From positions 496,001 through 560,000 of the forward strand of contig BGKB01000013.1 in assembly GCA_003116975.1 (NCBI GenBank): a stretch of 64,000 nucleotides of DNA. Direction: 5' to 3'. Each line of letters begins with the position of its first letter. The first letter of the stretch is position 1. The notes under the pieces were generated by a model. The model saw nothing but the letters and a program-made list of their open reading frames with translations. It had not been told where the DNA came from and made no database searches. This document shows, piece after piece, positions 2,370 through 59,848 of this stretch. A program made the position numbers and the translations under genes. Origin of the DNA: Aurantiochytrium sp. KH105. Lineage: Eukaryota; Sar; Bigyra; Thraustochytrida; Thraustochytriidae.

Positions 2370-5066
2370 CTACATGCTGTGATACATGCTGCGGTGCTCG
2401 TCTCTCTCTTGTGCAAAGTGCAATACCTTGACCTCGCGAAGCACGACTTGCTGACGGGCCTCAATCTTTTGCAACTGAATCCCGATTTTGGTGTTCATGG
2501 CATTGACTTCCTCGCGGAGTCGCGCGAGCGCTGCTCGAAAGTTCTTGGTGCTGCTCGCATCGGAGAGTGCTTCGCTTCGTCGCTGGATTTCTACATCGAG
2601 TTTGTCTCGCTGGTCTTCCAGCTCAGCCATGCGCTCGGCAAGTTCGTTGACAACAAGTCGTAGCGCATCGGTTCGAGATTGGATCGTCCGTGCGTGTGCA
2701 TTCAGCGCGCTTTGCGTGTCGCGTTCAAGCTCAAAGGCCCGCGCGATTCGCGTCTCACCGTGTCGAATGTGTTCCAAGTCTTGCGCCCAGACAGCGGCCG
2801 CGCCCTCAAGCCGCTCGACAGCCCTGCTACATTCCTGGCCAAGTTTGGCCTTGTGCACGGACAGAATTTCCTGTCGGCCTCGCCACGTCCCCTTCAATTG
2901 AGCATGGCACATTTGACTCACGTGCTGCAACCTTAGTCCCACTTTTTCTTTCTCTAGCTCCCAGGCTTTCGCCGAGTCTTGCGACGGGTTATCAAGCTTC
3001 GGTAGCAGAATTGGCGCCCCAATCGCCCCCGAGGTGGCGCGTGCATGCCGTTGCAAGGATGAATCATCTTTGCCGAAGAGTCTGTCGCCATCATCACCAT
3101 ATTCTTCTTCTTCTTCTTCTTCTTCGCCTTCGCTGTGCTCGAACTCCGCGATACTTGATGTGTCGTCCAGATGCTTCTCATCGACCTCGAGCGAGATTGC
3201 ATCTGATCTGACAGAAGCATAATCCGGCATCCGAAGCTGCACCTTTTGAACGCGGACGACTAAAGCTTCCGCAAGCACGCGAACTACTCGACACACACCC
3301 AAACCAAATCCATGAACAAGCTGTGCTGGACTGATTCCTGCGACTTGGTCCTGGATGCTTGGGCCCAAGCGACTCATGACCGCGAGAAGCGACCGCGAGA
3401 CATTCAGAGGCGGCGTCATAGCTTCATAAATCCAGTTCGACTTCATTCGGCGCAGCATCCACGAGCACAGCTTCATGCACGATGCAAATTGTGCATGCCT
3501 TTCGCCATCTCCACCTCCAATCATCGAGGGATCATGCGCAAAACGAAAAGCAGGATGAAGGTCCCTTCCATCATACGCTGCTAAGGCAAGGAAATCAGCC
3601 GCCTTGTCGATTTCGAGAAGAGCGCACCCAGAAAGGGCCGGTCTGACCGCTGTATCATCGTCCGCAACCCTCTCTGTCTTTTTTCGTCCGTGCTCGTGTC
3701 TTTTTGATAGGTGCTTGTGCTCGTGCTGTTGCTGCCGCTTGGCGCTTCCGGAAGAACCTGAAGGCTGCAGGCGCGATGACTCGCTGCGAGCCTGACTTAT
3801 ATCCTTTTCTCGTTCGCCGACAGCTCCCGGGACAGCGTGAACAGGCGATGGTTTCAAGGCTGTTCGTTGCGTTGCGATCGTTGGTGGGCGCATGTCAAGG
3901 CTCGTTTGTATCGCCTCAGCGCGAAGACAGATTTCAGCCATATCTGGCCGTCGTTCGGAATTTACCAAGAGCATGGCGTCAACGAGCGTGCCAAGCTCCT
4001 CGGAATAGTGACCTTCCAGGTTGAGAGCGGGGTAAGATCCATTTAAAATTTTGCGGAAAAGCTCGGGCAATGCAATGCCTTCTTCCTTGAAGGGGGAACG
4101 GAGCGCCGCAAGCTCGTACAGGATGCATCCAAGGCTCCAAACATCGGATTTCCAGTCGTATCCCTTTCCCCGCAATACTTCAGGTGACATATACAGAGGT
4201 GTACCCACCTTGGAGTGCGCCGTCAGCGTAGTGTCACTCAGAGCTCGTCCAAGGCCAAGGTCCCCTACCTTGACCGATCCATCTGTCATGAGAAAGACGT
4301 TGGCCGGCTTCAAATCACGGTGCATGATGCGTTTGGCGTGCATGTGCTCGATGGCGCTTGCAAGCTGAGTAAAGTATCTCCAAATAATGCGCTCCTGAAA
4401 TCCTTTGTTCTTTTCCCGCGCCTTGCGGATTTGACGCTTCAAATCGCCGGCACTCGCCCACTCAAGAACAATGATGAGCTCGTCCTTATCAATGAAGGCA
4501 TCGAGGCACTGAATAATATTCACGTGGTCAAGTGCTCGAATCAAATCCACCTCCTCGAGACACTTGATGCGTGTCTTGCGACTCATATTCAAGAACACAG
4601 ACACGCGCTTGAGCGCGCACATTTGGCCGCTTGACTTGCGCTCGGCGCGAAAGACTGTCGAAAACTTCCCTTTGCCGACCGCTCCAAAGACATTGTAATC
4701 GGTGAGGCACGTTGTACTGTTGCTGCTGACGGATTCGAGAAGTTCTTTGTCGCGCGCTCTTCTTCTCGTCTTGCTCGTTTGGTCTTTGCGGCCCGAAATG
4801 AGTGCTGTTGCCGTGGCGGTCGTCGCTGTCAAGGTCGTCATCGGTGTCGTCGTGGTAGTGTTACCAACGCTGGCCGCCTCATGGGCATCCTCATCACTCG
4901 CTACGTCGGCGTCGGTTGCTCCTGCAACAATTCCAGCACCAGCACGCGCTGTCGCTGAAGAGCTCTTGGACGTCAAGCTGTCTCTGGAGCAGGCTACCTT
5001 CCCCTCATCGCGGCCTTCCCGCCTTTCATTTGATGGCGGCGACGATGGTCGCTCCGAGCTGCCCAT
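2370..5066 (-). CDS. NEK-type protein kinase fused to IFT57
   Basis: One open frame of 898 residues from an ATG. Residues 1-120 are Ser/Thr/Ala-rich. Residues 124-390 are a complete NIMA-related kinase: glycine loop GKGKFSTVF, Lys153 in ALKR, HRDLKPAN at 249-256, DLG at 269-271, and T-loop SKVGTPLYMSPE. Residues about 400-475 are a His/Gln/Lys-rich linker. Residues 478-605 resemble the calponin-homology-like domain of IFT57 (FLALAAYDGRDL, NVSRSLLAVMS, HGFGLGVCRVVRVLAEAL). An acidic stretch at 646-662 follows, then the IFT57 coiled coil (AWELEKEKVGLRLQ, LREEVNAMNTKIGIQL). IFT57 belongs to the IFT-B train inside cilia, and NEK kinases often control cilium length. There is no Met between residue 392 and residue 515, so the IFT57 half has no start codon of its own ahead of its domain. 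The fusion looks real unless an unseen intron or assembly join intervenes. Confidence 0.88.
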   Translation of the reverse strand: MGSSERPSSPPSNERREGRDEGKVACSRDSLTSKSSSATARAGAGIVAGATDADVASDEDAHEAASVGNTTTTTPMTTLTATTATATALISGRKDQTSKTRRRARDKELLESVSSNSTTCLTDYNVFGAVGKGKFSTVFRAERKSSGQMCALKRVSVFLNMSRKTRIKCLEEVDLIRALDHVNIIQCLDAFIDKDELIIVLEWASAGDLKRQIRKAREKNKGFQERIIWRYFTQLASAIEHMHAKRIMHRDLKPANVFLMTDGSVKVGDLGLGRALSDTTLTAHSKVGTPLYMSPEVLRGKGYDWKSDVWSLGCILYELAALRSPFKEEGIALPELFRKILNGSYPALNLEGHYSEELGTLVDAMLLVNSERRPDMAEICLRAEAIQTSLDMRPPTIATQRTALKPSPVHAVPGAVGEREKDISQARSESSRLQPSGSSGSAKRQQQHEHKHLSKRHEHGRKKTERVADDDTAVRPALSGCALLEIDKAADFLALAAYDGRDLHPAFRFAHDPSMIGGGDGERHAQFASCMKLCSWMLRRMKSNWIYEAMTPPLNVSRSLLAVMSRLGPSIQDQVAGISPAQLVHGFGLGVCRVVRVLAEALVVRVQKVQLRMPDYASVRSDAISLEVDEKHLDDTSSIAEFEHSEGEEEEEEEEYGDDGDRLFGKDDSSLQRHARATSGAIGAPILLPKLDNPSQDSAKAWELEKEKVGLRLQHVSQMCHAQLKGTWRGRQEILSVHKAKLGQECSRAVERLEGAAAVWAQDLEHIRHGETRIARAFELERDTQSALNAHARTIQSRTDALRLVVNELAERMAELEDQRDKLDVEIQRRSEALSDASSTKNFRAALARLREEVNAMNTKIGIQLQKIEARQQVVLREVKVLHFAQERDEHRSMYHSM

Positions 5067-17144: not shown

Positions 17145-20100
17145 TCAGTCGAGCATCTCCACGTAGGCCCGCGGAACCAAACCTTCTTGGCCATTCAGCT
17201 CGGCCTTCAGCCAGTCCGCACCCTCCTCCGCAACGATGTTCAAGACATCCCCAGCGGAACACCCCAGGTCATCTTCCTCTTGGGCTTCAAAGTCCCAGAT
17301 TACTTTGCACTGAGGCAGGGCAGACGACTTCGTGGCGGGAGGTGGCGGCGGCGGAGGAGGTGGCGGAGGTGGCGGTGCTTGCCCTGAAGACGTTGAAGGT
17401 ATATTTGCCGAAGCCGGAACAGCCATGAGATCCTCTATCGTGGTCCCGTCTGGCGGGATGGGACGGTATGCATCAAAAGAGCCTTCCGTCATGCGCGAAA
17501 AGTCATACTCGCCATAACTGACAGGATTAGGATTTTGCTCGAGAACCTTGAAATGCTGCGGGCCGAGACGACTAAAGACAATGGCTGTGTGGTCGGGCGA
17601 CCCTGCAGACTTCCAGCCATTGTCGGTTTTGAACTTTGCAGACTTGAATTGCAAAACATCACCCGGCAAAACCTGTTCGAGACTCATTTTGACGCCAAAG
17701 TTGAATCCAATCACGGGGGCAGTTTTCGCACTTCCCAAAGCCTCCTTGGCGAGCGTCCAGCATTCGCCGTTACCAACGCGTCGTCCGAGATTCATCTCGG
17801 CAAATTTGATAATGTCGGGGCCGTATTTCTTTCCTGCAAGCGAAAGCACCTCATCGGCCGGTCGCTGAAAAGGTTGAACGTTGGCCTGGTAACGACACAA
17901 ATCGGAATCCAGACTTTGCGATATCTCGAGACGCACCTTTGTGCGATCCTTTTTGAGAATGGTGTAGACATCGTTCCGGATCATACTTGCCTTCGACGAA
18001 AGAAAACCTCCGGATTGCGTCGTAGTCTTGAGCGAGTATGTCTCCCCCTGACTGTACCATGGTGCTGGCGGCGGCGAAGATTGCATCGAAGGTGGGCGTC
18101 GAAGCTCTCCCGAGGAAATGCCAGCCGTCAAGCTAGGAACAGAAGTTTGTCCTGATCCCGAAGAAGGTGGAGACGGTGGCGGTGGAGGCGGCGGTGGCGG
18201 CGAAGGAGACGACGGCGAAGAAGAATGAGCAGGGCCTGAATTAGCCGGGGAAAGCGCGGGCGGCGGCGGCGGCGGCGGAGGCGGCGACGATGGTGCGGAG
18301 GACGAGCCGCCACCCGAGAGTTCCGAAGGGACTTGGTCTGCTGGCACCTTTTCCACAAAGTTAATTGGAAAGATGCCTTCAAAGTCGGCCTTTGACGGGC
18401 CCAAGACCACCCTTCCACGTCTCCAATTTTCGTCTTCCGTCTCCGTCACTATTATGTAGTCTCCCACCACAAAGGCAAGATCGCCTTCCTCCTGGCCCGG
18501 GAAATTGTCAATCGCAATGTAGAGCGCACTCACGTCCACACTGGGCTGGGGTGGACTCGAAGGCTCTGCAGGTGGTGGTGGCGGCGGTGGCGGCGGCGAA
18601 GGTGGCGACGATGGTGGAGCCGGAGTGGCGGCCTTGGGCGAAGCCGCAGGCATGGACGCTTGTTGTGGCTGACGCATGCTCACGCTTGAAGCAAGCTTGC
18701 TGATACGAGCAGAAATGGGGCTTGCTGCATGAAGTTCATCCGACGTTGGTGCCGGTGCTGGTGGAGGAGGTGTGGGTTTTCTCGTCTTGACCGCCTCCTT
18801 TACCTCCTCTACGTAGTTGCTCGGAAAAGATCCAGACGCTCCATCCGTTTTGCTGCCGAGCCACCATCCTTCTGGATCAGTTTTCTCATCCAGATAAATG
18901 ATATCACCCACCTCGAATGAGATTTCGTCTTCTTCAGGGTTGCCGTGGAAGGGGTAGATGGCACGCAACTGTGTTCGCCCCCCTCCGTCTGCGGAGGAAG
19001 ACTGCTGTTTTCTCCGTTCTGCCACCGGAGGGGCTGCTGGCCCTGATACATCCACCGCCGAGGATGGCGCCTTGTTGGCAAGGCCACTTCCCTCTGCACC
19101 TCCTGAAGTGCTAGACGAGGCGTTTGGAGATCGATTGGCGCGATATGACCCATTCTGTGCAGCCGAAATCATTTTTGGGTCTGCAAAAAGCTTGGACTGG
19201 AGCTCAGCAACCGAGCTCCGTGCCGGATTCGGGATCCCGTCGGCTTGTGGAGGAGAGGACACCGACGATTCGGCGTCGCTTTCGGGTCCCTTGGCGGAAG
19301 TTGGTGAGGGTTTTGCGGCAGGAGCAGAGGACGAGGCTTTCCTGGCATCGAACTGCTCTTTAGAGATTTCCCGCACGTAGTTCGCGGGAAATAAGCCGCG
19401 ACGCGAGCCAATCTTCCCTTCCCACCAAGCGTCCTCTTTTTTCAGAACTTCAACAACATCACCTTCCTCCATGTGCAGATCGCCAACTCCTGTTGTCTCG
19501 AAAGAGTACAGCGCTTCTGCAAACGTGCTATCTTCCTTTTCCACTTCATCCGAAACGGTCTCGGTTCGATCGTTGGTGTATGCGTCTTCTTCTTCACTTT
19601 CTTTTCCGACATATTGAGCCGGGAAGAGCCCCTTTCGAGCGCCGATTGTCCCAGTCCACCAATCGCCATCCTTATTCTCGACAAGAACTAAATCGCCCTT
19701 TTGCAGCGCGAGGTCGCCATCTCGCGAGGCGTTGAGGTCGTACAGAGCCCGATACCTCTCCACATTCGCTGAGCCTTGCGGCGGGACCCCTGCAGACTTT
19801 TCGTTTGCACTTTGTGGCGAATGCGTCTCCTGTGAAGAGACGGATGGTGGTGATCTCTGAGGATTTGGAGAAGGAGTTGCAGTCTCGGCCGCAGGTGGGT
19901 CCTCCGTCGGAGCACGAGGGGCATTCGTTTTCCGCGATACTGGGCGTCGTGTCGACGGCGCTAATGCTGCGCGACTGTGCTGGCTTTTATGGTATCCGCA
20001 TTTGCAGGTGCCAAACTTCGAGGCGGTCACATCGACGTGGAATTCGTTGCAGGCGCCTGATTCCTGAGACTTTGGTTCTGCTGATGATTTTGCAGGCGAG

Positions 20101-20546
20101 GCAGCTGCCGACGCTCGCGGTGAAGACACCGCATGTCGCGGAGATGACGTTTCATTGCGAGGAGACGATGCTACTACATTGCGAGGGGATGGCGCCGCTG
20201 CATTGCGGGATTGTGTGGAAGCAGCAAAAGCAGCCCCGGCACTAGAAGCGGCATTGCTAGCCCCTGCACCGGACATCGAAGCTGGTCTTGGATGTGCTGA
20301 TCGTGCAGACAATGGTGTTCTTCTGTGGTCCGCCTTGGGATGCCCACACCTGCACATCCCGAAAGCTGAGGCGGTTACGTCGACGGTGAAGTTGTCGCAG
20401 GCGCCCCCTGCGGCGCCATTCGTATTTGCCGTATCTAAAGAGCGGCTCGGCCCATTCCTCGGTCGTGACACGTTTTCTGTCGTTCCCACGGAACTAGGTT
20501 CTGCAGCCTCTCTCCTTCTCGCCAGGATCTTCTGAAGTTCTGCCAT
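17145..20546 (-). CDS. Five-SH3 endocytic/actin adaptor with BBC1-type papain-like fold domain
   Basis: 1133 residues, no introns. Two related N-terminal motifs (about 50-75 and 166-191: CDNFTVDVTASAFGMCRCG, then Lys and His) look like small metal-binding modules. SH3 domains lie at about 264-315 (YRALYDLNASRDGDLALQKGD), 342-393, 526-582, 674-733 and 1078-1133. Long polyproline linkers separate them (650-660, 754-763, 784-793, 1058-1070). Residues ~860-1030 resemble the NlpC/CHAP-like domain of the fungal actin-patch proteins Bbc1 and Aim3: Cys929 in GNGECWTLA, PGDVLQF, His986 in PDHTAIV. The SH3-plus-polyproline architecture fits control of Arp2/3-driven endocytosis. Whether the Cys/His pair is catalytic is unknown. 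Confidence 0.85.
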   Translation of the reverse strand: MAELQKILARRREAAEPSSVGTTENVSRPRNGPSRSLDTANTNGAAGGACDNFTVDVTASAFGMCRCGHPKADHRRTPLSARSAHPRPASMSGAGASNAASSAGAAFAASTQSRNAAAPSPRNVVASSPRNETSSPRHAVSSPRASAAASPAKSSAEPKSQESGACNEFHVDVTASKFGTCKCGYHKSQHSRAALAPSTRRPVSRKTNAPRAPTEDPPAAETATPSPNPQRSPPSVSSQETHSPQSANEKSAGVPPQGSANVERYRALYDLNASRDGDLALQKGDLVLVENKDGDWWTGTIGARKGLFPAQYVGKESEEEDAYTNDRTETVSDEVEKEDSTFAEALYSFETTGVGDLHMEEGDVVEVLKKEDAWWEGKIGSRRGLFPANYVREISKEQFDARKASSSAPAAKPSPTSAKGPESDAESSVSSPPQADGIPNPARSSVAELQSKLFADPKMISAAQNGSYRANRSPNASSSTSGGAEGSGLANKAPSSAVDVSGPAAPPVAERRKQQSSSADGGGRTQLRAIYPFHGNPEEDEISFEVGDIIYLDEKTDPEGWWLGSKTDGASGSFPSNYVEEVKEAVKTRKPTPPPPAPAPTSDELHAASPISARISKLASSVSMRQPQQASMPAASPKAATPAPPSSPPSPPPPPPPPPAEPSSPPQPSVDVSALYIAIDNFPGQEEGDLAFVVGDYIIVTETEDENWRRGRVVLGPSKADFEGIFPINFVEKVPADQVPSELSGGGSSSAPSSPPPPPPPPPALSPANSGPAHSSSPSSPSPPPPPPPPPSPPSSGSGQTSVPSLTAGISSGELRRPPSMQSSPPPAPWYSQGETYSLKTTTQSGGFLSSKASMIRNDVYTILKKDRTKVRLEISQSLDSDLCRYQANVQPFQRPADEVLSLAGKKYGPDIIKFAEMNLGRRVGNGECWTLAKEALGSAKTAPVIGFNFGVKMSLEQVLPGDVLQFKSAKFKTDNGWKSAGSPDHTAIVFSRLGPQHFKVLEQNPNPVSYGEYDFSRMTEGSFDAYRPIPPDGTTIEDLMAVPASANIPSTSSGQAPPPPPPPPPPPPPATKSSALPQCKVIWDFEAQEEDDLGCSAGDVLNIVAEEGADWLKAELNGQEGLVPRAYVEMLD

Positions 20547-28946: not shown

Positions 28947-30212
28947 ATGGTGTGCCTGGACAACTCGGAGTGGATGCGTAACGGGGACTACATGCCAACC
29001 CGCATGGAAGCCCAGCACGACGCTTCGAACCTTGTCTGCGGCAGCAAGACGCAGCAGAACCCCGAGAGTACCGTAGGCATTATGACGTGCGCTGGCGCAG
29101 GTGTCGAGGTGCTTTGCTCCCCAACAGACGATATGGGTCGCATTCTCAGCGCCACCGCCAACATCCGTGTCGGCGGCAAGGCCAACTTTGCCGCAGGGCT
29201 TCAAATCGCGCAACTTGCGCTTAAACACCGAAAGAACAAGAATGGCGGACAGCGCATCGTCATGTTTGTGGGCAGCCCCGTGGAGGCCGAGGAGCGCAAG
29301 CTTACCAAGATCGCCAAACAGCTCAAGAAGGCCAACATTGCCGTTGACATTATCAGCATGGGCGAGTCAGACATGAACGAGAGCAAGCTGAATACCTTCA
29401 TTGAAACCGTCAACAAAAACAACAACAGCCACATGGTCACCATCCCCGCAGGCACGCTTCCTTCGGATGTGCTTATCACCTCGCCGATCGTCACTGGCGA
29501 CGATGGAAGTGGCGGCGGCGGTGGCGGCGGCGGTGCTGCCGCCTTTTCCGAATACGGCGGCGTCGATCCCAACCTTGACCCTGAACTGGCCATTGCATTA
29601 CGTGTATCTATGGAAGAGGCCCGTGCCGAGGCTGAGCGCAAGGCCGCCAATGATTCCAACGCCGGAGGCGAATCGAAGAGCGAGGAGCAAGAAGCCGCGG
29701 CCGCTGAGGAACCCTCGAGCAGCCGTTCGTCTTCGTCGCGCCGTAGCCGCAGCCGTCGCAGCCGCAGCCGCAGTCGTAGTCGCCGCAGCCGCAGCCGCAA
29801 CAAGGAGCAGGATGCTGAGGATCAGGCTCTCGAAGCCGCAGCGGCCGCGGCTTCCGCCGCAGGCATCGACATTGATGACATGGACGACGACGCTCTCTTG
29901 CAGCAGGCTCTCATGATGTCAATGGCCGACGAAGGTGGCGATGCGGGTGGGTCCACGGGCGCGAGCGGCAGTGGCGGCTCGACCAAATTCATTGACAAAG
30001 ACTTTATGCAGAGTCTCCTCTCAGGCCTTCCTGGCGTCGATATGAACGATCCCCAGATCAGAGCCGCCATGGCGGGAGCTGGCGACGAGCAGGACGCCGA
30101 GGGCGACGATGATGATGACAATGATGGCGAAGACGACGACCGGAGCTCCCGCAGGAGCTCCAAGAAGCGCTCCTCGAAGCGACGCTCTTCCTCTCGCAAG
30201 GGCGACAAGTAA
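28947..30212 (+). CDS. RPN10: 26S proteasome ubiquitin receptor RPN10/PSMD4
   Basis: 421 residues from the first in-frame ATG; the true start is probably a few codons earlier, because codons for PLEST, conserved in this family, lie just upstream. The von Willebrand A domain spans residues 1 to ~185 (CLDNSEWMRNGDY, VGGKANFAAGLQIAQLALKHRKNK, VMFVGSPV). Ubiquitin-interacting motifs are at about 212-226 (ELAIALRVSMEEAR) and 314-328 (ALLQQALMMSMADE). Between them sits an SR-rich segment at ~258-285 (RRSRSRRSRSRSRSRR), and a second Arg/Ser/Lys-rich tail follows residue 398. RPN10 captures ubiquitinated substrates at the proteasome regulatory particle. The SR-rich insert is unusual for this family. 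Confidence 0.95.
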   Translation: MVCLDNSEWMRNGDYMPTRMEAQHDASNLVCGSKTQQNPESTVGIMTCAGAGVEVLCSPTDDMGRILSATANIRVGGKANFAAGLQIAQLALKHRKNKNGGQRIVMFVGSPVEAEERKLTKIAKQLKKANIAVDIISMGESDMNESKLNTFIETVNKNNNSHMVTIPAGTLPSDVLITSPIVTGDDGSGGGGGGGGAAAFSEYGGVDPNLDPELAIALRVSMEEARAEAERKAANDSNAGGESKSEEQEAAAAEEPSSSRSSSSRRSRSRRSRSRSRSRRSRSRNKEQDAEDQALEAAAAAASAAGIDIDDMDDDALLQQALMMSMADEGGDAGGSTGASGSGGSTKFIDKDFMQSLLSGLPGVDMNDPQIRAAMAGAGDEQDAEGDDDDDNDGEDDDRSSRRSSKKRSSKRRSSSRKGDK

Positions 30213-45903: not shown

Positions 45904-47463
45904 ATGGCGGGCAAGAAGAAGGACGCGGGCAAGGACGGCGAGAAGTCGGATGCCTCAAAGGAGAATTCGCCCGAGCAACAGCAAAAGGAGGAGGCGAGCG
46001 CCAAGGAAGAACCCTTTGTGGCAATGGATGCCCTCCACGAGAATCTGCAGCTCCTCGAAGCGTCTGTACAGAGCAAAGACCAGAACGGCCTGAAGCGCGT
46101 GCTGCGCAAGAATACGGCCATCCGCAAAACAATCGCTTTCGATGACTTTGGCCTGGTCATGGACGTATGGATCCCACCAACGTCTTCGCTCAACAAGCAG
46201 CTGCACAGCGAGCTGAGCGCGGCGGCTCGTGGCGGCGCAGAGAGCGCACTCGTTCCCGAGAACGAGGAAGAAGTCGAATTCCTGGCGAAAAGGCGCAAAG
46301 AGTACACTGCGATGGACGTCAAGACCGACACCCTCCCCGAGACCGAGGCATATCTGAGCCTCTTTGCCATCAAGGCGCTCATGGATGGCGGCCGCATCGA
46401 GCAGGCGCAAGACAGCGCCAGCCAGCTGTTGGAGATGATTTCTGCTGAGAACAGGCGCACGCTGGATCTTTTCCAGGCCAAGGCGTACCAGTTCAAGGCG
46501 CGGTGCGCGGAGCTGCTCGGCGACGCAGCGGCGCTGCGCCCCGAGCTCCTGAGCGCGCATCGCACGGCGTGTCTGCGTCTTGACGAGCAGGGCCAGGCCA
46601 TGCTTATCAACCTCATTCTGCGCAACTATACCGAGGCCAACCTTGTCGATCAGGCCGTCAAGTTTGCCTTTAAAGCACACTTTCCCGAGTCGGCCTCGAA
46701 CAACCAGCAGGTGCGCCACTTGTACTACATGGGCCGACTGTCGGCGCTGCAGCTTGACTACTCGGTGGCTTTTCAGAAGCTTACGCAGGCGATTCGCAAG
46801 GCGCCCTCCAACACGGGCCTCGGGTTCCGCATTGCGCTGCACAAGCTAGCCTCCATCGTGCAGTTGCTCATGGGTGAGACCCCGGAGCGCTCCTGGTTCG
46901 CACAGCCCGAGATGGAAGTTCCTCTTGCGCCTTACTTTGAGCTTGTGCGTGCTGTGCGCAACGGCAGCCTCGCAGAGTACGACCGCGTGCGCGAGGCGCG
47001 CGCCGCCGTTTTTGCAGAGGACAAGCTCGCGACGCTCGTAGTCCGTCTGCGCAACTCTGTCATCCGCACGGGTCTGCGCCGCATCAATGTTTCGTACTCC
47101 CGCATCAGTTTCAAGGACATTGCCAAGCGTTTGGCGCTCGATCAGCCGGAATCTGCCGAGCTTGCCTGCGCCAAGGCTATTCGCGACGGCGTCATTGAGG
47201 CCACGCTTAACCATGAAAAGGGCTACATGAAGTCGTCTGATGTCATGGACATTTACTCGACCATTGAGCCGCAGCAAGCCTTCCACCGCCGCATTCAGTT
47301 CTGCCTTGACATGCACAACGAGGCCGTCAAGTCCATGCGGTATCCTCCTGACGCGCACAAGGTCAAGCACGACCAAACCGAGGACGATGATGACCTTGAG
47401 AAGAAGTCCGAGGAGGAGCTTGCCAAGGAGATCGAGGAGGAGCTCGAGGAGGACGAGGACTAA
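45904..47463 (+). CDS. RPN3: 26S proteasome lid subunit RPN3/PSMD3
   Basis: 519 residues from ATG 45904 (MAGKKKDAGKDGEKSDASK). After a charged N-terminal tail, TPR-like helices lead to a PCI domain. RPN3 family hallmarks: TEAYLSLFAIKALMD, HRTACLRLDEQGQAMLINLILRNYT, YYMGRLSALQLDYSVAFQKLTQAIRKAP, LAPYFELVRAVRNGSLAEY, GLRRINVSYSRISFKDIAKRL and FHRRIQFCLDMHNEAVKSMRYPP. The C-terminal acidic helix (KSEEELAKEIEEELEEDED) is typical of the lid bundle. RPN3 is a structural lid subunit of the regulatory particle. Length is close to other RPN3 proteins. Confidence 0.97.
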   Translation: MAGKKKDAGKDGEKSDASKENSPEQQQKEEASAKEEPFVAMDALHENLQLLEASVQSKDQNGLKRVLRKNTAIRKTIAFDDFGLVMDVWIPPTSSLNKQLHSELSAAARGGAESALVPENEEEVEFLAKRRKEYTAMDVKTDTLPETEAYLSLFAIKALMDGGRIEQAQDSASQLLEMISAENRRTLDLFQAKAYQFKARCAELLGDAAALRPELLSAHRTACLRLDEQGQAMLINLILRNYTEANLVDQAVKFAFKAHFPESASNNQQVRHLYYMGRLSALQLDYSVAFQKLTQAIRKAPSNTGLGFRIALHKLASIVQLLMGETPERSWFAQPEMEVPLAPYFELVRAVRNGSLAEYDRVREARAAVFAEDKLATLVVRLRNSVIRTGLRRINVSYSRISFKDIAKRLALDQPESAELACAKAIRDGVIEATLNHEKGYMKSSDVMDIYSTIEPQQAFHRRIQFCLDMHNEAVKSMRYPPDAHKVKHDQTEDDDDLEKKSEEELAKEIEEELEEDED

Positions 47464-47844: not shown

Positions 47845-49458
47845 ATGGACCTCGTACTGCCAGCTTTCGTGGCTCTCTGGGCTCTGCTTTGGGCCCTTCT
47901 CGAGGCGCGCGAGCCCGGAGCCCCGATCCACGCTGTCCGAGAAGTACACCAGCCCGACAAACACGTGTCAGATGCTGCTGTCGCGCTCGATCCAGCCCAG
48001 GTGTCAAGCGAAAGCGCGTCTCAGCACCGTCGCGACATCGTCCACAACGACGACGATGACGACAGCAAAAGTGACAACAGCAACCACAACAGCAGCGGCA
48101 GTGACGACAATATCAGATTAGCGCTGTTAAAAAACTTGCGCAAGACGCGCGACCAGGTAAAGCCTCGGAGTGCGGATGGGAAAATTGCTATTGGATTCAA
48201 TGTGTGCGTGGATGCCGTCGTGGACGCGCTCGAGCTGCTGCAAAAGTCAGGGGTCGAGCCCGTGCAAGGCAAACTACCTCAGTCCGTAACTAGCCTCGAC
48301 GACGTGGGCGAGATCTTTACGCATCTCTTTGAGCGTGCTGCCGGTGGCGAGCGCTTTGTTGAAGACGATGAGACCTTTGCCTCTCTTGAAGATGGCCTCG
48401 CGCAGTGTGACTCGCGCCGTCTTCTCCTCGGCGGCAATGCAGCCATTATGGCTGTGGTCCTTGCGCGCGACTGGAATTTTAAGCATATTAGTCTTGGCGG
48501 ACCAATTGGCCCCTTTGCTGAGCCGCTACTTCCTGCTCAAGTTGCGACTTTCAGCTTGGACGAGGGCGAGGACGTCTTGGGCGTCAAGACCAAGGCTGAT
48601 GAGGTGCACATTATCATGGAGTACAAGAAGGGATCAAAGTGGGCAGGGAGCGCGGCGCGGCGCGCGAACCGCTTCATCGTTTCTCGTGACCTGTCAAACG
48701 CGGTCATTGCAGCTCTCGAGCCACTCATGGAGCACGTGCGTGACGCTCCCGACGGGCCATTTGACCTCCTCATCGCTGCAGGTTTGCACATGCTTGACGC
48801 CATGGAGGCGGACGTGCAGCGCAAACGTGTCGGTGAAATTGCCGAGAGCTTTCGCTCCCTGCCTGCTGAGACGTTGATTCATTTCGAGCTGGCCGCAGTT
48901 GGAAAGCCAATCTTGCTCGAGGAGCTTGGCACTCGCATTCTACCTGAAGTCGACTCGCTCGGACTCAACGAGCAGGAAATTGGCGCACTCTATGTGGCTC
49001 TTGGACTTGAAGGTGTCAATCTCGACGCCGTCACAGGTCTCGTACCGGACGTCGAGGCCGTGACAAAGATCATCACGGATATCCTTGCCGGTGCCGAGAG
49101 GCTCGGCCGCATTCACTTTCACTGTTTTGGGTATCATGTACTTGCCTTGAAAAAGGCGAGCATTGATCGTTGGCCACACGCTACGTCCTCCGTGGCTGCT
49201 GGATCAGTAAAGGCATCGGAGCGTGCATGCGCGAGCGCCAATCTAGGCGCGCAAGACGTCACACTTCAGCTTCACGGGCCGATACGCTTCGCAGGATCCC
49301 AGCGCGAGTACAGAGTGACGCCCGAGTCTCCTGTCATTGAGCATGAGACTGAGACTCTTTACTTTGCACTGGCGCCCGTGCTCACCTGTAACGAACCTGT
49401 TCAGACTGTTGGTCTCGGTGACTCGATTTCCGCTTCGGCGCTAGCGTATCAGATCTGA
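47845..49458 (+). CDS. ADPGK: ADP-dependent glucokinase (ADPGK)
   Basis: 537 residues from ATG 47845 (MDLVLPAFVALWALLWALLEAREPG), a hydrophobic N terminus that is a likely signal anchor for the ER, as in animal ADPGK. An Asp/Ser/Asn-rich linker precedes the ribokinase-fold domain: IAIGFNVCVDAVVDAL, LGGNAAIMAVVLA, GGPIGPFAEPLLP, EVHIIMEYKKGSKW, ANRFIVSRDLSN, DLLIAAGLHML and the catalytic GLGDSISASAL near the end. The family phosphorylates glucose using ADP and is known from archaea and animals. A 41-bp tandem duplication covers the stop codon. Confidence 0.93.
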   Translation: MDLVLPAFVALWALLWALLEAREPGAPIHAVREVHQPDKHVSDAAVALDPAQVSSESASQHRRDIVHNDDDDDSKSDNSNHNSSGSDDNIRLALLKNLRKTRDQVKPRSADGKIAIGFNVCVDAVVDALELLQKSGVEPVQGKLPQSVTSLDDVGEIFTHLFERAAGGERFVEDDETFASLEDGLAQCDSRRLLLGGNAAIMAVVLARDWNFKHISLGGPIGPFAEPLLPAQVATFSLDEGEDVLGVKTKADEVHIIMEYKKGSKWAGSAARRANRFIVSRDLSNAVIAALEPLMEHVRDAPDGPFDLLIAAGLHMLDAMEADVQRKRVGEIAESFRSLPAETLIHFELAAVGKPILLEELGTRILPEVDSLGLNEQEIGALYVALGLEGVNLDAVTGLVPDVEAVTKIITDILAGAERLGRIHFHCFGYHVLALKKASIDRWPHATSSVAAGSVKASERACASANLGAQDVTLQLHGPIRFAGSQREYRVTPESPVIEHETETLYFALAPVLTCNEPVQTVGLGDSISASALAYQI

Positions 49459-52009: not shown

Positions 52010-53747
52010 ATGAAGGGCCTATACGGCGTGGTCGAGTACCAGGGCCGCCGCGGGTAAGTCAGACTCGGAGAAGAAGAAGAAGGAGGAGGAGGAGAGAATC
52101 AAGGACGAGGCGCGTGAGACCGTGTGCGCCGAGAGGCCGAACAAGGGGTGCGCGAACTAACGAGCGAGGGAATGACTTTACAGGGGCATGGAGGACGCAA
52201 GCTCGACGCTGCTGACGGACGACTTTGTTATTCTTGGCGTCTACGACGGCCACGGCGGCTCAACGTGCTCGGACTTTCTCAAAGAGAAACTTTTGGCACG
52301 CGTAAGCAGCAACTTGCAAAAGGGAGACGCGCCGAAAAGAGCCCTGGAGAATGCCTTCGAGAGCATCGACGACGACTATTGCGATTTCGCGCTCAAAATG
52401 GACATTGACGATGGGTCGACGGCGACGGTCCTCCTCCTCAAGGATAAGGAATACTATCTTGCCGCTGCCGGCGACTCGCGCGCTGTGCTCGTCATGGAAG
52501 ATGGCACCGTCGAGGCGCTGAGCCATGATCACAAACCCGACCGGCGAGACGAGAGACTCCGCGTTACCGAAGCCGGTGGCCAGGTCGAGTACGACCACGA
52601 CAACGGCACGTATCGCGTCTTTTCCGAGGAGGTCGGCGGCCTCGCCGTCACGCGTGCCCTTGGCGATGCCCATTTTAAGCCCTATGTGACCGGCACACCC
52701 GAGATTACGAGCGGACGGATCTCATCCAAGGCCTCATACGTGGTGATGGCCAGCGACGGGCTCTGGGACGACGTTACCAACGCCGAGGCAGGCGAAGTGA
52801 TTTGCGAAATGCGCGACCGCGACATGGACCGTGAGGAGCCCGGTAGACACTTGCAGGAGGCCGTCAAGGAGCTCGTCTACATTGCGTACTCGCGCGGCTC
52901 CGAAGACAACATCACCGTGCTAGCCACCGATTTGCAGCGGTACTTGCAAGTGCAGCAGGAGCAGCAAGCATCCAAGGCGGAAGCGCTGCGCGCCGCACGT
53001 GCCGCTCAGGCAGAACCTGACGCCGAGGAAGAACCCGAGAAGCCCAAGCGGCATCATTACAAGCGCACCATTCCAGGCCTTGACGAGTACGGCAACCTGA
53101 GCGAGCTCTTGTTGTGGAAGAATCCATTACGTACCTTTTTGTGGTTCTCCGTGGGCTGCCTCACGTTTTTCCTTACGCATGGTGCAAATTATTCGCTGCT
53201 GACGCTCGGATCGTACTTGCTCATGATGCAAATCGTCATCACTACTTTTGTTGTCAAGGCCACGCCTGGGCTGAAAAAGCTCCGCCTGGTTGGCGAGAAC
53301 TTTGATGCCACCATCTTTGTGCTCCAAGGTTCACTTCTCAGTGACGAGATCGTGCGCCGCGCCGCGGAGTTCACTTTGCGCACGACAACCTCGATATTCT
53401 CCAAGTGGAACACGGTCGTGCAGGTAGGCTCGGCAAAGCGCATTCTCCTGAGTCTGCGCTTTATCTCGTATCTGTTTTCGCCGCTGCCGCTCGATGTGGC
53501 GCTCTTTGTCCTTTTTGTTGCCATGTTCAGTCTCCCGGCCACGTACTTTTACAACCAGCCCTTTATGGACCGCCAGTACAACTCCATGCTCGCCTCTTAT
53601 CATCGTTCCACCCGAAGTGTATCAAAGCTGTTTGGCTGGTCGAGCAGCTCCGCCGACGCCACGTCCTCCAAGCGGTCTAGCAGGTCCAGCAGGGCCAGCA
53701 GGTCTCGTCGCAGCGAGCTCGCGGACGACGAGGAGGACACGCTCTGA
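52010..53747 (+). CDS. PP2C protein phosphatase fused to a reticulon-homology domain
   Basis: Two exons, 52010-52053 and 52184-53747, give about 535 residues. The N-terminal ~265 residues are a full PP2C (PPM) phosphatase: VEYQGRRGGMEDA, VYDGHGG, ATVLLLKDKEYYLAAAGDSRAVL, HDHKPD, GGLAVTRALGDAHFK, VMASDGLWDDVTN and EDNITVLATDL, so the metal-binding Asp are present. A charged linker (~265-315) leads to a reticulon-homology pattern: ELLLWKNPLRTFLWFSVGCL...LLTLGSYLLMMQIVI, a ~66-residue loop, then a second hydrophobic hairpin (LLSLRFISYLF...DVALFVLFVAMFSLPATYFYN). The Ser/Arg-rich end is SSKRSSRSSRASRSRRSE. Reticulons shape ER tubules; PP2C dephosphorylates Ser/Thr. All the signal after the intron lies in one open frame. 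Confidence 0.87.
52054..52183 (+). other. Intron in PP2C-reticulon gene
   Basis: The donor is GTAAGT at 52054 (phase 2) and the acceptor TTTACAG ends at 52183. Splicing joins QGRR to GGMEDA, the conserved start of PP2C domains. 130 nt. Confidence 0.87.
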
Positions 53748-57200: not shown

Positions 57201-58220
57201 ATGCGCGACGAGGGCGGCCGGAACCTCGCAGCGCTGGCGCTAGCGCTAGCGCTGACGCAGGCTTCGGGCTGGAGGCTGCTCGAGTCGGACACGGCCGAGG
57301 CTACTTCTGATCTCTGCGCTTCTGTCTTTGATGAGGCGCAGACACAGGTTCTGCGGACCGTCACGCTGACGGGCGCTGGGCTCTCGCTCGCAGGCAGTTT
57401 GTTCATCGTCATCTCTTACCTGATCCTGGTGCGCATTCGCACCTTCCCGTACAAGCTCGTCATGTTTCTGAGCGTGGCCAACGTGGGCTCGAGCTTGGCC
57501 TACTTTGTTGGTCTCGCGAGTATTAACGAAGGCAACGTTCACGAGTGCACCTCGTCCGTAGGGTGCATTCTTGCAGCAGCCATGACTCAATTCTTCGATG
57601 TGGCCTCATTCTTTTGGATTGCCATCATTGCCTTCAATGTGCACGCAGTCCTGGTCCGTAACAAGGGTCGCGCGGTGGAGGCCTATGAACGTTGGTACCA
57701 CTTGGTGGGCTGGGGGATTTCGCTCATCATTACAATCATTTGTGGCGCCCTGGGCTGCTTTGGCGATAGCGGTATCTGGTGTTGGATCAAGCGAGACCGT
57801 CAGACAGCCCGCTTCTTTGCGTATTATCTGCCACTCTTGATCGTCTTTTCGTTCACGGCGAGCACCTACCTAATTGTCAGCTCTGCACTCCAACACCAAG
57901 TTCAAGGGCGCACCGTTACGCGACGACTTCGACTTTACCTCGCGGTTTTTGTGGTTTTTCGCGTCTGGGGGGTTGTGCACCGCACTCACAACTACTTTCA
58001 TGAAAACCAAATGTTCTGGCTTGCTCTTATGCATGCGATTTTCTCGCCCCTGCAAGGTTTCGCCAACGCGCTTGTTTATGGCTGCAATGCTGCGGTAGCA
58101 CGTGAATATCGACGCTATTGCAGCGGTCTCAACACCGAGGACCGCATTGAGGATGGTGACGACGATCTCGATGACGACGATGTGCGTGAGGTGCGCGCGC
58201 AAGAGCTGACTCCAATCTAG
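57201..58220 (+). CDS. cAMP-receptor-like seven-transmembrane GPCR (class E type)
   Basis: 339 residues from ATG 57201. A signal peptide (ALALALALTQASG) and a short acidic ectodomain are followed by seven hydrophobic helices: TM1 GAGLSLAGSLFIVISYLILV, then RIRTFPYKLVMFLSVANVGSSLAYFVG, TQFFDVASFFWIAIIAFNVHAVLV, WYHLVGWGISLIITIICGALG, FFAYYLPLLIVFSFTASTYLIV, LRLYLAVFVVFRVWGVVHRTHNYF and HAIFSPLQGFANALVYGCNAAVAREYRRY. This pattern (TFPYKLVMFLS, PLQGFANALVYG) fits the Dictyostelium cAMP receptor/GCR1 group. The cytosolic tail is acidic. The ligand is unknown. Confidence 0.88.
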   Translation: MRDEGGRNLAALALALALTQASGWRLLESDTAEATSDLCASVFDEAQTQVLRTVTLTGAGLSLAGSLFIVISYLILVRIRTFPYKLVMFLSVANVGSSLAYFVGLASINEGNVHECTSSVGCILAAAMTQFFDVASFFWIAIIAFNVHAVLVRNKGRAVEAYERWYHLVGWGISLIITIICGALGCFGDSGIWCWIKRDRQTARFFAYYLPLLIVFSFTASTYLIVSSALQHQVQGRTVTRRLRLYLAVFVVFRVWGVVHRTHNYFHENQMFWLALMHAIFSPLQGFANALVYGCNAAVAREYRRYCSGLNTEDRIEDGDDDLDDDDVREVRAQELTPI

Positions 58221-58463: not shown

Positions 58464-59848
58464 CTAGCTCGAAGTCTTGTCCTTGTTTTGCTGTTGCTGT
58501 CGAGCACGGTCACCAAGTCGCTGCCGCGCGTCATCAATCATCGGCTCAAGGCGCTTTTCCTTGGCGAGGGTCTTGAGAATGGCCACGCAAAGCGGAATGT
58601 AGTTGTGCCGTCTGCGAATGTTTTCGCTGTGCCACTTGGCAAATTTGGACTCCTTCTCCTCGAGCGTTGGCACGAGTTCCATCTTCCGCACCCGCTCCGC
58701 GCGGAGCTGCGTTTTGAGAGATGGAAGGTCATTGGAATACACGAGCTGTTCGAAGCCCTCCGTATCCTCCAGCGGTACCGGCGTGAAGCTGTCGTCTGCC
58801 GTCACGTCGTCGTGTCCATCGAGCATGGCCTCCAAAGTCTGCGTGCGAGTTTCGCACTCGTCAATCTTGTCCTGGAGCACAACGCGTTGATCTTTGATTA
58901 CAGCCATGAGATTGAAGCGAATTTCGGAAGCCGCGTATCGCGCGATGCGTTGCTGAATATGAGGCGCAACGGCGGGGATCCAGTCTGCGCCTTCCTCGAC
59001 CTCCCCAAGACAAATGGGCCCTGCCTTGAGACCGTCAAGCTCGTAAATCTTGTTCTTGAACGGAATGTACGCGATAAAGTGAAAGACGTCGTCGTCGGGA
59101 CCTGCGTATTGCTTCTTGTCTGAAATAAAAGGCTCTGGTCGGTTGAAGCTGTTGTGCGCAAGCCGGACATTATCAAGGTTGCTAATGGCCTCGCCGCGCA
59201 TGTCGGGTGGCATGACCCCGACGAACTCCTTGAAGCTCCGCAGACTCGGCCCAATGTCCACCTCATCCGACTGGATGTTGAGCAGGATCGACAGCAGCGC
59301 CTGCGTTGCACATGCGTTCGTGATCATTTGTCGCGCGAAAAACAGTTCTTCGTCGCAACCCACATTCACGGGCCGATCATCCTCCTCGGGTCTCCACTTG
59401 AAAAGAAAAATGAGCCCGTACATGGGCTTCATGTCCGAGAAGTCATCATCGAGGCTGTACAGTTCCTCCACCTGGATGTTCTTGACGCCGATCTTTTGGA
59501 TCAGCTCCGTGAAAACGCCTGCAGCACCTCTTCAGCATCAGCGTCAGCGCGCGTTCATTTTATCAATACCTTCGTCACTTTCTCTACTCCCCTCTTTCCC
59601 TGATCTGCTCTGCCCTCTCCCGTGTCCTCGCGAAGAGCCGCTCGCGTGCTTCAGCGCTGCAGCAGCGGCGGTTGGGCCCGTGCTATCCCTCCTCCCCCGC
59701 GATGATCTCCGCGCAGGAGCCAAGCATCCAGCCAGCTGCCGCATCGAAGACGCCAGCCCCTCGCAGGGCCGCGTCCTCGGCCAGAGCGCGCCCCTCGCCC
59801 CGCGCAGAACCTACCGGGGTCCGACTCGATCGTGCACCAGTCTGCCAT
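58464..59848 (-). CDS. UCHL5: Ubiquitin C-terminal hydrolase UCH37/UCHL5
   Basis: Two exons on the minus strand, 59815-59848 and 58464-59518, give about 362 residues. Exon 1 encodes MADWCTIESDPG; exon 2 continues VFTELIQKIGVKNIQVEELYSL, exactly as in UCH37. Catalytic residues: Cys in NACATQALLSILLN, His in DVFHFIAYIP, Asp in YELDGLKAGPI. The C-terminal part (IRRRHNYIPLCVAILKTLAKEKRLEPMI, then Gln/Asn/Lys) fits the ULD tail that binds RPN13 at the proteasome. The enzyme trims ubiquitin chains on proteasome substrates. It converges on the GPCR gene, 243 bases between stops. Confidence 0.94.
59519..59814 (-). other. Intron in UCHL5
   Basis: On the minus strand the donor is GTAGGT after the first base of a Gly codon (phase 1) and the acceptor is GCTGCAG. 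Splicing joins SDPG to VFTEL, the conserved UCH37 N terminus. 296 nt, the longest intron found here. Confidence 0.9.

Follow-up and report, generated by a model that had tools for sequence, protein, structure and literature searches.

Both enzyme-reticulon fusions (Arabidopsis RTN19 and RTN20) and ER-bound PP2C phosphatases (PPM1L) are known already; what is new at the locus reported here, within the literature that we searched, is their combination. The membrane anchor of PPM1L (PP2Ce) is N-terminal and is not a reticulon domain. To our knowledge, most canonical reticulons (RTN/RTNLB/Rtn1) carry no catalytic domain, and plant PP2Cs of the ABI/HAB group carry no reticulon domain. RTN19 (3BETAHSD/D2) and RTN20 place an N-terminal enzyme, a sterol 3beta-HSD/decarboxylase, before a C-terminal reticulon domain; RTN19 is seen throughout the ER and RTN20 in puncta, the mutants alter sterol composition, and over-expression is described without ER constriction in the part of PMC5797236 that is cited here. 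On the phosphatase side, PPM1L is a PP2C-type enzyme at the ER membrane that acts on IRE1 (PMC4219728, cited in part). The FAM134/RETREG ER-phagy receptors are likewise proteins with a reticulon-homology domain (RHD), and they are under phosphorylation control, by CK2 (PMC9432840 and PMC10724265, excerpts). A PP2C-reticulon protein is not announced in the titles or abstract openings of the papers that our open-access searches for one returned, and an earlier annotation elsewhere is possible.

We analysed a stretch of 64,000 nucleotides (the window) that carries such a fusion. The domain fusion is real and well supported in the DNA, and both domains probably lie in one protein. Splicing and translation of a two-exon gene on the plus strand (52010-52053 joined to 52184-53747) gives a product of 535 aa. 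This bears out the coordinates of the preliminary description (52010-53747): the ATG at 52010 is the earliest one downstream of an in-frame stop, and the stop codon at 53745-53747 closes exon 2. The features of the gene are as follows.

52010-52053, plus strand: exon 1 (44 nt), coding for residues 1-14 plus the first two bases of codon 15; the PP2C domain begins here, and R14 of RxxMED is included
52054-52183, plus strand: intron, GT-AG, 130 nt; splicing it out lengthens the PF00481 match
52184-52937, plus strand: rest of the PP2C/PPM catalytic domain; PF00481 covers residues 6-258, motifs aligned with plant PP2C structures
52188, 52245, 52470, 52755 and 52905, plus strand: the PP2C motifs MED, DGHGG, GDSR, DGLWD and DN, respectively, from the alignment with solved plant PP2Cs
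52938-53102, plus strand: linker, residues 267-321; a Gln/Ala/Glu-rich stretch, then a charged stretch
53100-53579, plus strand: reticulon-homology domain, residues 321-480 (PF02453 match)
53121-53255, plus strand: hydrophobic stretch (putative hairpin) 1, with hand-set boundaries at residues 328 and 372
53256-53441, plus strand: hydrophilic loop of 62 aa between the two stretches (residues 373-434), likewise with hand-set boundaries
53442-53552, plus strand: hydrophobic stretch (putative hairpin) 2, with hand-set boundaries at residues 435 and 471
53571-53633, plus strand: candidate amphipathic helix, residues 478-498, from a weak helical hydrophobic moment
53640-53744, plus strand: Ser/Arg-rich, then acidic tail, residues 501-535, from composition and motif counts

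The N-terminal part appears to be a complete PPM phosphatase, as first proposed. In Pfam, PF00481 matched the spliced protein almost over its full length (profile positions 4-255 of 255, E 3.7e-49, 168.1 bits vs a cut-off of 20.3), and the RxxMED, DGHGG, GDSR, DGLWD and DN motifs were intact when aligned to solved plant PP2Cs. Motifs of this kind provide the phosphate-binding Arg and the metal-binding Asp. In a PDB sequence search, the nearest solved PP2C sequences were plant proteins (E down to 2.2e-28), which are presumably members of the ABI/HAB group, and this closeness may reflect only what has been solved. An NCBIfam scan placed PP2C models below cut-off and returned no reticulon-type match.

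Exon 1 is short but backed by homology, because the PF00481 match begins at profile position 4 when exon 1 is spliced in and at position 32 without it, and because human PPM1A/PPM1B chains align from query residue 5 in the PDB sequence table. With 3nmv_B, a plant phosphatase, the part encoded by exon 1 aligned weakly and apart from the rest (2.9 bits, LYGVVEYQGRRGGMEDAS with LYGVTSICGRRPEMEDSV); despite this separate alignment, it falls inside the single PF00481 profile match.

The same frame continues into a reticulon-homology domain. PF02453 matched the spliced protein over profile positions 2-154 of 157 (Pfam, E 2.8e-13, 50.5 bits vs a cut-off of 31.8), so that both Pfam matches stand above their curated cut-offs in one protein, which supports the first reading of a PP2C and a reticulon-homology domain in a single frame; translation from the exon-2 Met gave the same two domains. 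The preliminary description had named a reticulon profile search as the check on this assignment and a missing match as its refutation, and PF02453 was matched. The match held for the C-terminal part alone (E 3.6e-14) and for a segment of 191 residues (E 2.4e-14). Because composition alone can make hydrophobic sequences match membrane families, 10 control sequences were generated. The 8 that were scanned comprised one reversed sequence, two complete shuffles and five local ones in blocks of 8, which roughly preserve the hydropathy profile. PF02453 matched none of the eight, with HMMER filters hiding most matches above E ~0.1. A PDB search with the RHD alone returned a single chance-level match (E 5.3). 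With its near-full PF02453 match and two hydrophobic stretches around a hydrophilic loop, the C-terminal part is laid out like a canonical reticulon; here, however, a PP2C domain stands where reticulons have their variable N-terminal region.

Two more specific identities were considered. The RTN19/20 enzyme is a different one, and no 3beta-HSD/decarboxylase domain was present among the Pfam matches listed. FAM134/RETREG identity was rejected: the RETREG RHD model (PF24456) stayed below its cut-off of 27 (22.3 for the protein, 25.2 for the isolated segment), and of the 10 LIR-like motifs in the 535 aa none falls within the C-terminal tail (residues 501-535). One LIR-like motif, LDEYGNLSE at residue 317, lies right before the RHD; it was given no weight, such motifs being frequent in this protein.

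The two long hydrophobic stretches separated by a loop, as first described, were recovered (residues 328-372 and 435-471), and the loop comes to 62 aa rather than the ~66 residues given before, both values depending on the choice of boundaries. ELLLW begins at residue 322. With these hand-set boundaries the stretches measure about 45 and 37 aa on either side of the 62-aa loop, lengths that would suit hairpins more than single spans of ~20 residues, and the C-terminal position and layout match those described for reticulons in the cited part of PMC5797236. A Kyte-Doolittle scan (19-residue window, mean above 1.2) flagged only residues 349-378 and 435-473. The threshold thus misses the first half of hairpin 1, yet residues 332-372 are free of charges; in hairpin 2 there are two charged residues, an Arg and an Asp. 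Structure prediction by AlphaFold2 without an alignment gave no usable fold (mean pLDDT 45.3 for the C-terminal part and 39.2 for 519 aa). In these low-confidence single-sequence models, hairpin 1 was drawn as two helices and a turn, the second region as a short helix and one helix of 48 residues with no clear hairpin, and the linker as a helix; the Gln/Ala/Glu-rich stretch of the linker is probably helical in this prediction.

The linker runs from the end of the PP2C part, near residue 266, to the start of the RHD, near residue 321, and the question is whether two neighbouring genes, or a chimeric assembly, have been read as one. This is the explanation that we find by far the least probable. 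In its favour, the fusion is known from one genomic copy, and relatives were not confirmed in viral or prokaryote contig collections, where two scans of viral contigs gave 4 and 5 pattern matches and one scan of genome contigs gave 26, with a single-protein query that detects close relatives only. Because these collections hold viruses and prokaryotes, and only close relatives would be found, the scans are silent on how widely the fusion has spread. Within the window, a tblastn search with the protein recovered the protein itself and three chance-level matches (E 1.8, 3.7 and 6.4). The linker itself argues for one gene. It contains no in-frame ATG, the next in-frame Met after the PP2C domain being residue 362, inside hairpin 1, so the RHD would need an unseen upstream exon to start alone in this frame. 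Both other forward frames carry stops across the linker, and no GTRAG donor was found in it.

Codon use points the same way. The scores, for which 12 ORFs elsewhere in the window served as the training set, were computed in 90-nt windows, and the frame of the gene scored best in 46/49 windows among the three forward frames and in 42/49 among all six. The linker reached 0.30 bits/codon, whereas its five alternative frames ranged from -0.54 to 0.10, and none of 2000 shuffles scored as high; its codon use thus fits the other ORFs of the window best in the frame of the gene. Two separate genes are unlikely given this coding-like linker, the lack of an in-frame ATG and the stops in the other forward frames; the two-gene and hidden-intron readings were set aside on the linker ATG, the stops, the donor and the coding score. 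AATAAA and ATTAAA were also absent from the linker, which is uninformative as the 3' flank of the gene lacks them too. The last 47 codons, which encode the RS-rich tail, are not clearly coding (-0.03, vs 0.24 in one antisense frame; 65/2000 shuffles).

We consider that this protein would act as an ER-membrane phosphatase, in which the RHD concentrates an active cytosolic PP2C on curved ER to dephosphorylate ER proteins, and we give this reading a probability of about one half. The simplest mechanism would be localisation, the RHD bringing the phosphatase to the ER membrane, which is probably curved there. The N-terminal PP2C domain would be an active metal-dependent Ser/Thr phosphatase, joined by a stalk of ~55 residues to the C-terminal reticulon domain. 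Because known reticulon topology leaves both termini in the cytosol, as described in the cited part of PMC5797236, the PP2C domain is expected on the cytosolic side. The two RHD hairpins in the ER membrane would gather the phosphatase along tubules and at the edges of sheets, and its substrates at the curved ER could be proteins of ER shaping or fusion, receptors for ER-phagy, or IRE1-type stress sensors. Precedents are PPM1L, which acts on IRE1 from the ER membrane, and the CK2-regulated RHD proteins of the FAM134 family.

Whether the membrane is curved at that site is the less secure part of this proposal. In the Schizosaccharomyces japonicus reticulon, an amphipathic helix is required for exclusive localisation to tubules (PMC7835363, cited in part). 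In the present protein, 18-residue windows with starts from residue 271 to 517 were compared for their helical hydrophobic moment, which is highest in the segment following hairpin 2; the maximum, 0.49 at residue 481, was reached by 526/20000 shuffles of segment 474-501 and is therefore weak; the helix after hairpin 2 is thus a candidate, and suggestive only. Points against the proposal are this weakly supported helix, the low-confidence models, which draw no clear hairpin 2, and the example of RTN19/20, which shows that ER constriction is no necessary consequence of carrying a fused RHD. Taken further, this example leads to a protein whose RHD only tethers the phosphatase, with neither curvature preference nor shaping. 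RTN19/20 have the same order of N-terminal enzyme and C-terminal RHD and no constriction phenotype in the cited part of PMC5797236; on the other hand, the RHD studied here covers the profile almost from end to end (2-154 of 157) and is followed by the candidate helix, weak as it is, and we regard a plain anchor as unlikely.

Another possibility is that the RHD itself bends the membrane and the attached phosphatase acts on the RS-rich tail of the protein, which the preliminary description took for a possible substrate, or on reticulons that share its oligomer, so that the phosphorylation state would switch oligomerisation, shaping or ER-phagy. The near-complete RHD, the candidate amphipathic helix directly after hairpin 2 and the composition of the tail (15 Ser/Thr and 8 RS/SR dipeptides in 35 residues) are consistent with such self-regulation, as is the need for phosphorylation in the dense clustering of the RHD receptors FAM134B/C (PMC10724265, in the excerpt cited). 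The helix is however weak (526/20000 shuffles), the coding score of the tail is not the highest of the six frames, and a motif scan of residues 501-535 found one CK2-type site but no RxxS/T motif; we consider a self-regulating shaper doubtful.

The finding bears on how RHD proteins are controlled. Their phosphorylation controls ER-phagy, and the cited parts of two studies differ in direction: activation of FAM134C needs dephosphorylation (PMC9432840), whereas function of FAM134B/C needs phosphorylation by CK2 (PMC10724265). A phosphatase hard-wired to an RHD would be a natural experiment on this control.

The fusion matters more if its host, first taken for a labyrinthulomycete, is a stramenopile, given the reported loss of reticulons in that group. 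A survey of 2022 judged a loss of reticulons to be the most likely history of stramenopiles (PMC9804665, cited in part), and a Plasmodium reticulon is named in PMC4980331 (cited in part). That survey required the original query or annotated orthologues among the top five reverse-BLAST hits, together with conserved length and domain architecture, and used HMMER and tBLASTn as fallbacks (PMC9804665, same excerpt). In our judgement, a PP2C-led fusion would tend to fail under such rules: its strongest domain is the PP2C, so reverse-BLAST and architecture criteria would tend to discard it. One could then imagine that, in this lineage, the reticulon survives only within a PP2C phosphatase, coupling ER shape to dephosphorylation, and that the reported loss is an artefact of reciprocal BLAST. 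We hold this to be rather improbable, since the survey also used HMMER and tBLASTn.

Other genes of the window were also inspected. On the minus strand, 2370-5066 is an ORF of 898 aa with a protein kinase domain (residues 124-380, E 1.4e-59) followed by IFT57 (residues 523-864, E 4.8e-30), another case, within this window, of a signalling enzyme joined to a domain of cell architecture; IFT57 could start separately at a Met, residue 515. The host is a eukaryote and, because the window encodes an IFT57 domain, probably a flagellated one. Also on the minus strand, 17145-20546 encodes five SH3 stretches and an AIM3/BBC1 C-terminal domain of cysteine-proteinase fold (E 7.9e-28); AIM3/BBC1 are actin-patch proteins of fungi. 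Three proteasome-linked genes lie within 31 kb, which could be chance: a VWA protein that looks to us like Rpn10 (28947-30212, plus strand), Rpn3/PSMD3 (45904-47463, plus strand) and a ubiquitin hydrolase that we take to be UCH37-like (58464-59432, minus strand). An ADP-dependent phosphofructokinase/glucokinase with a hydrophobic N-terminus is encoded at 47845-49458 on the plus strand (E 8.4e-100), and a seven-helix receptor, with the cAMP receptors of slime moulds as its top family in Pfam (E 8.7e-19), at 57201-58220 on the same strand.
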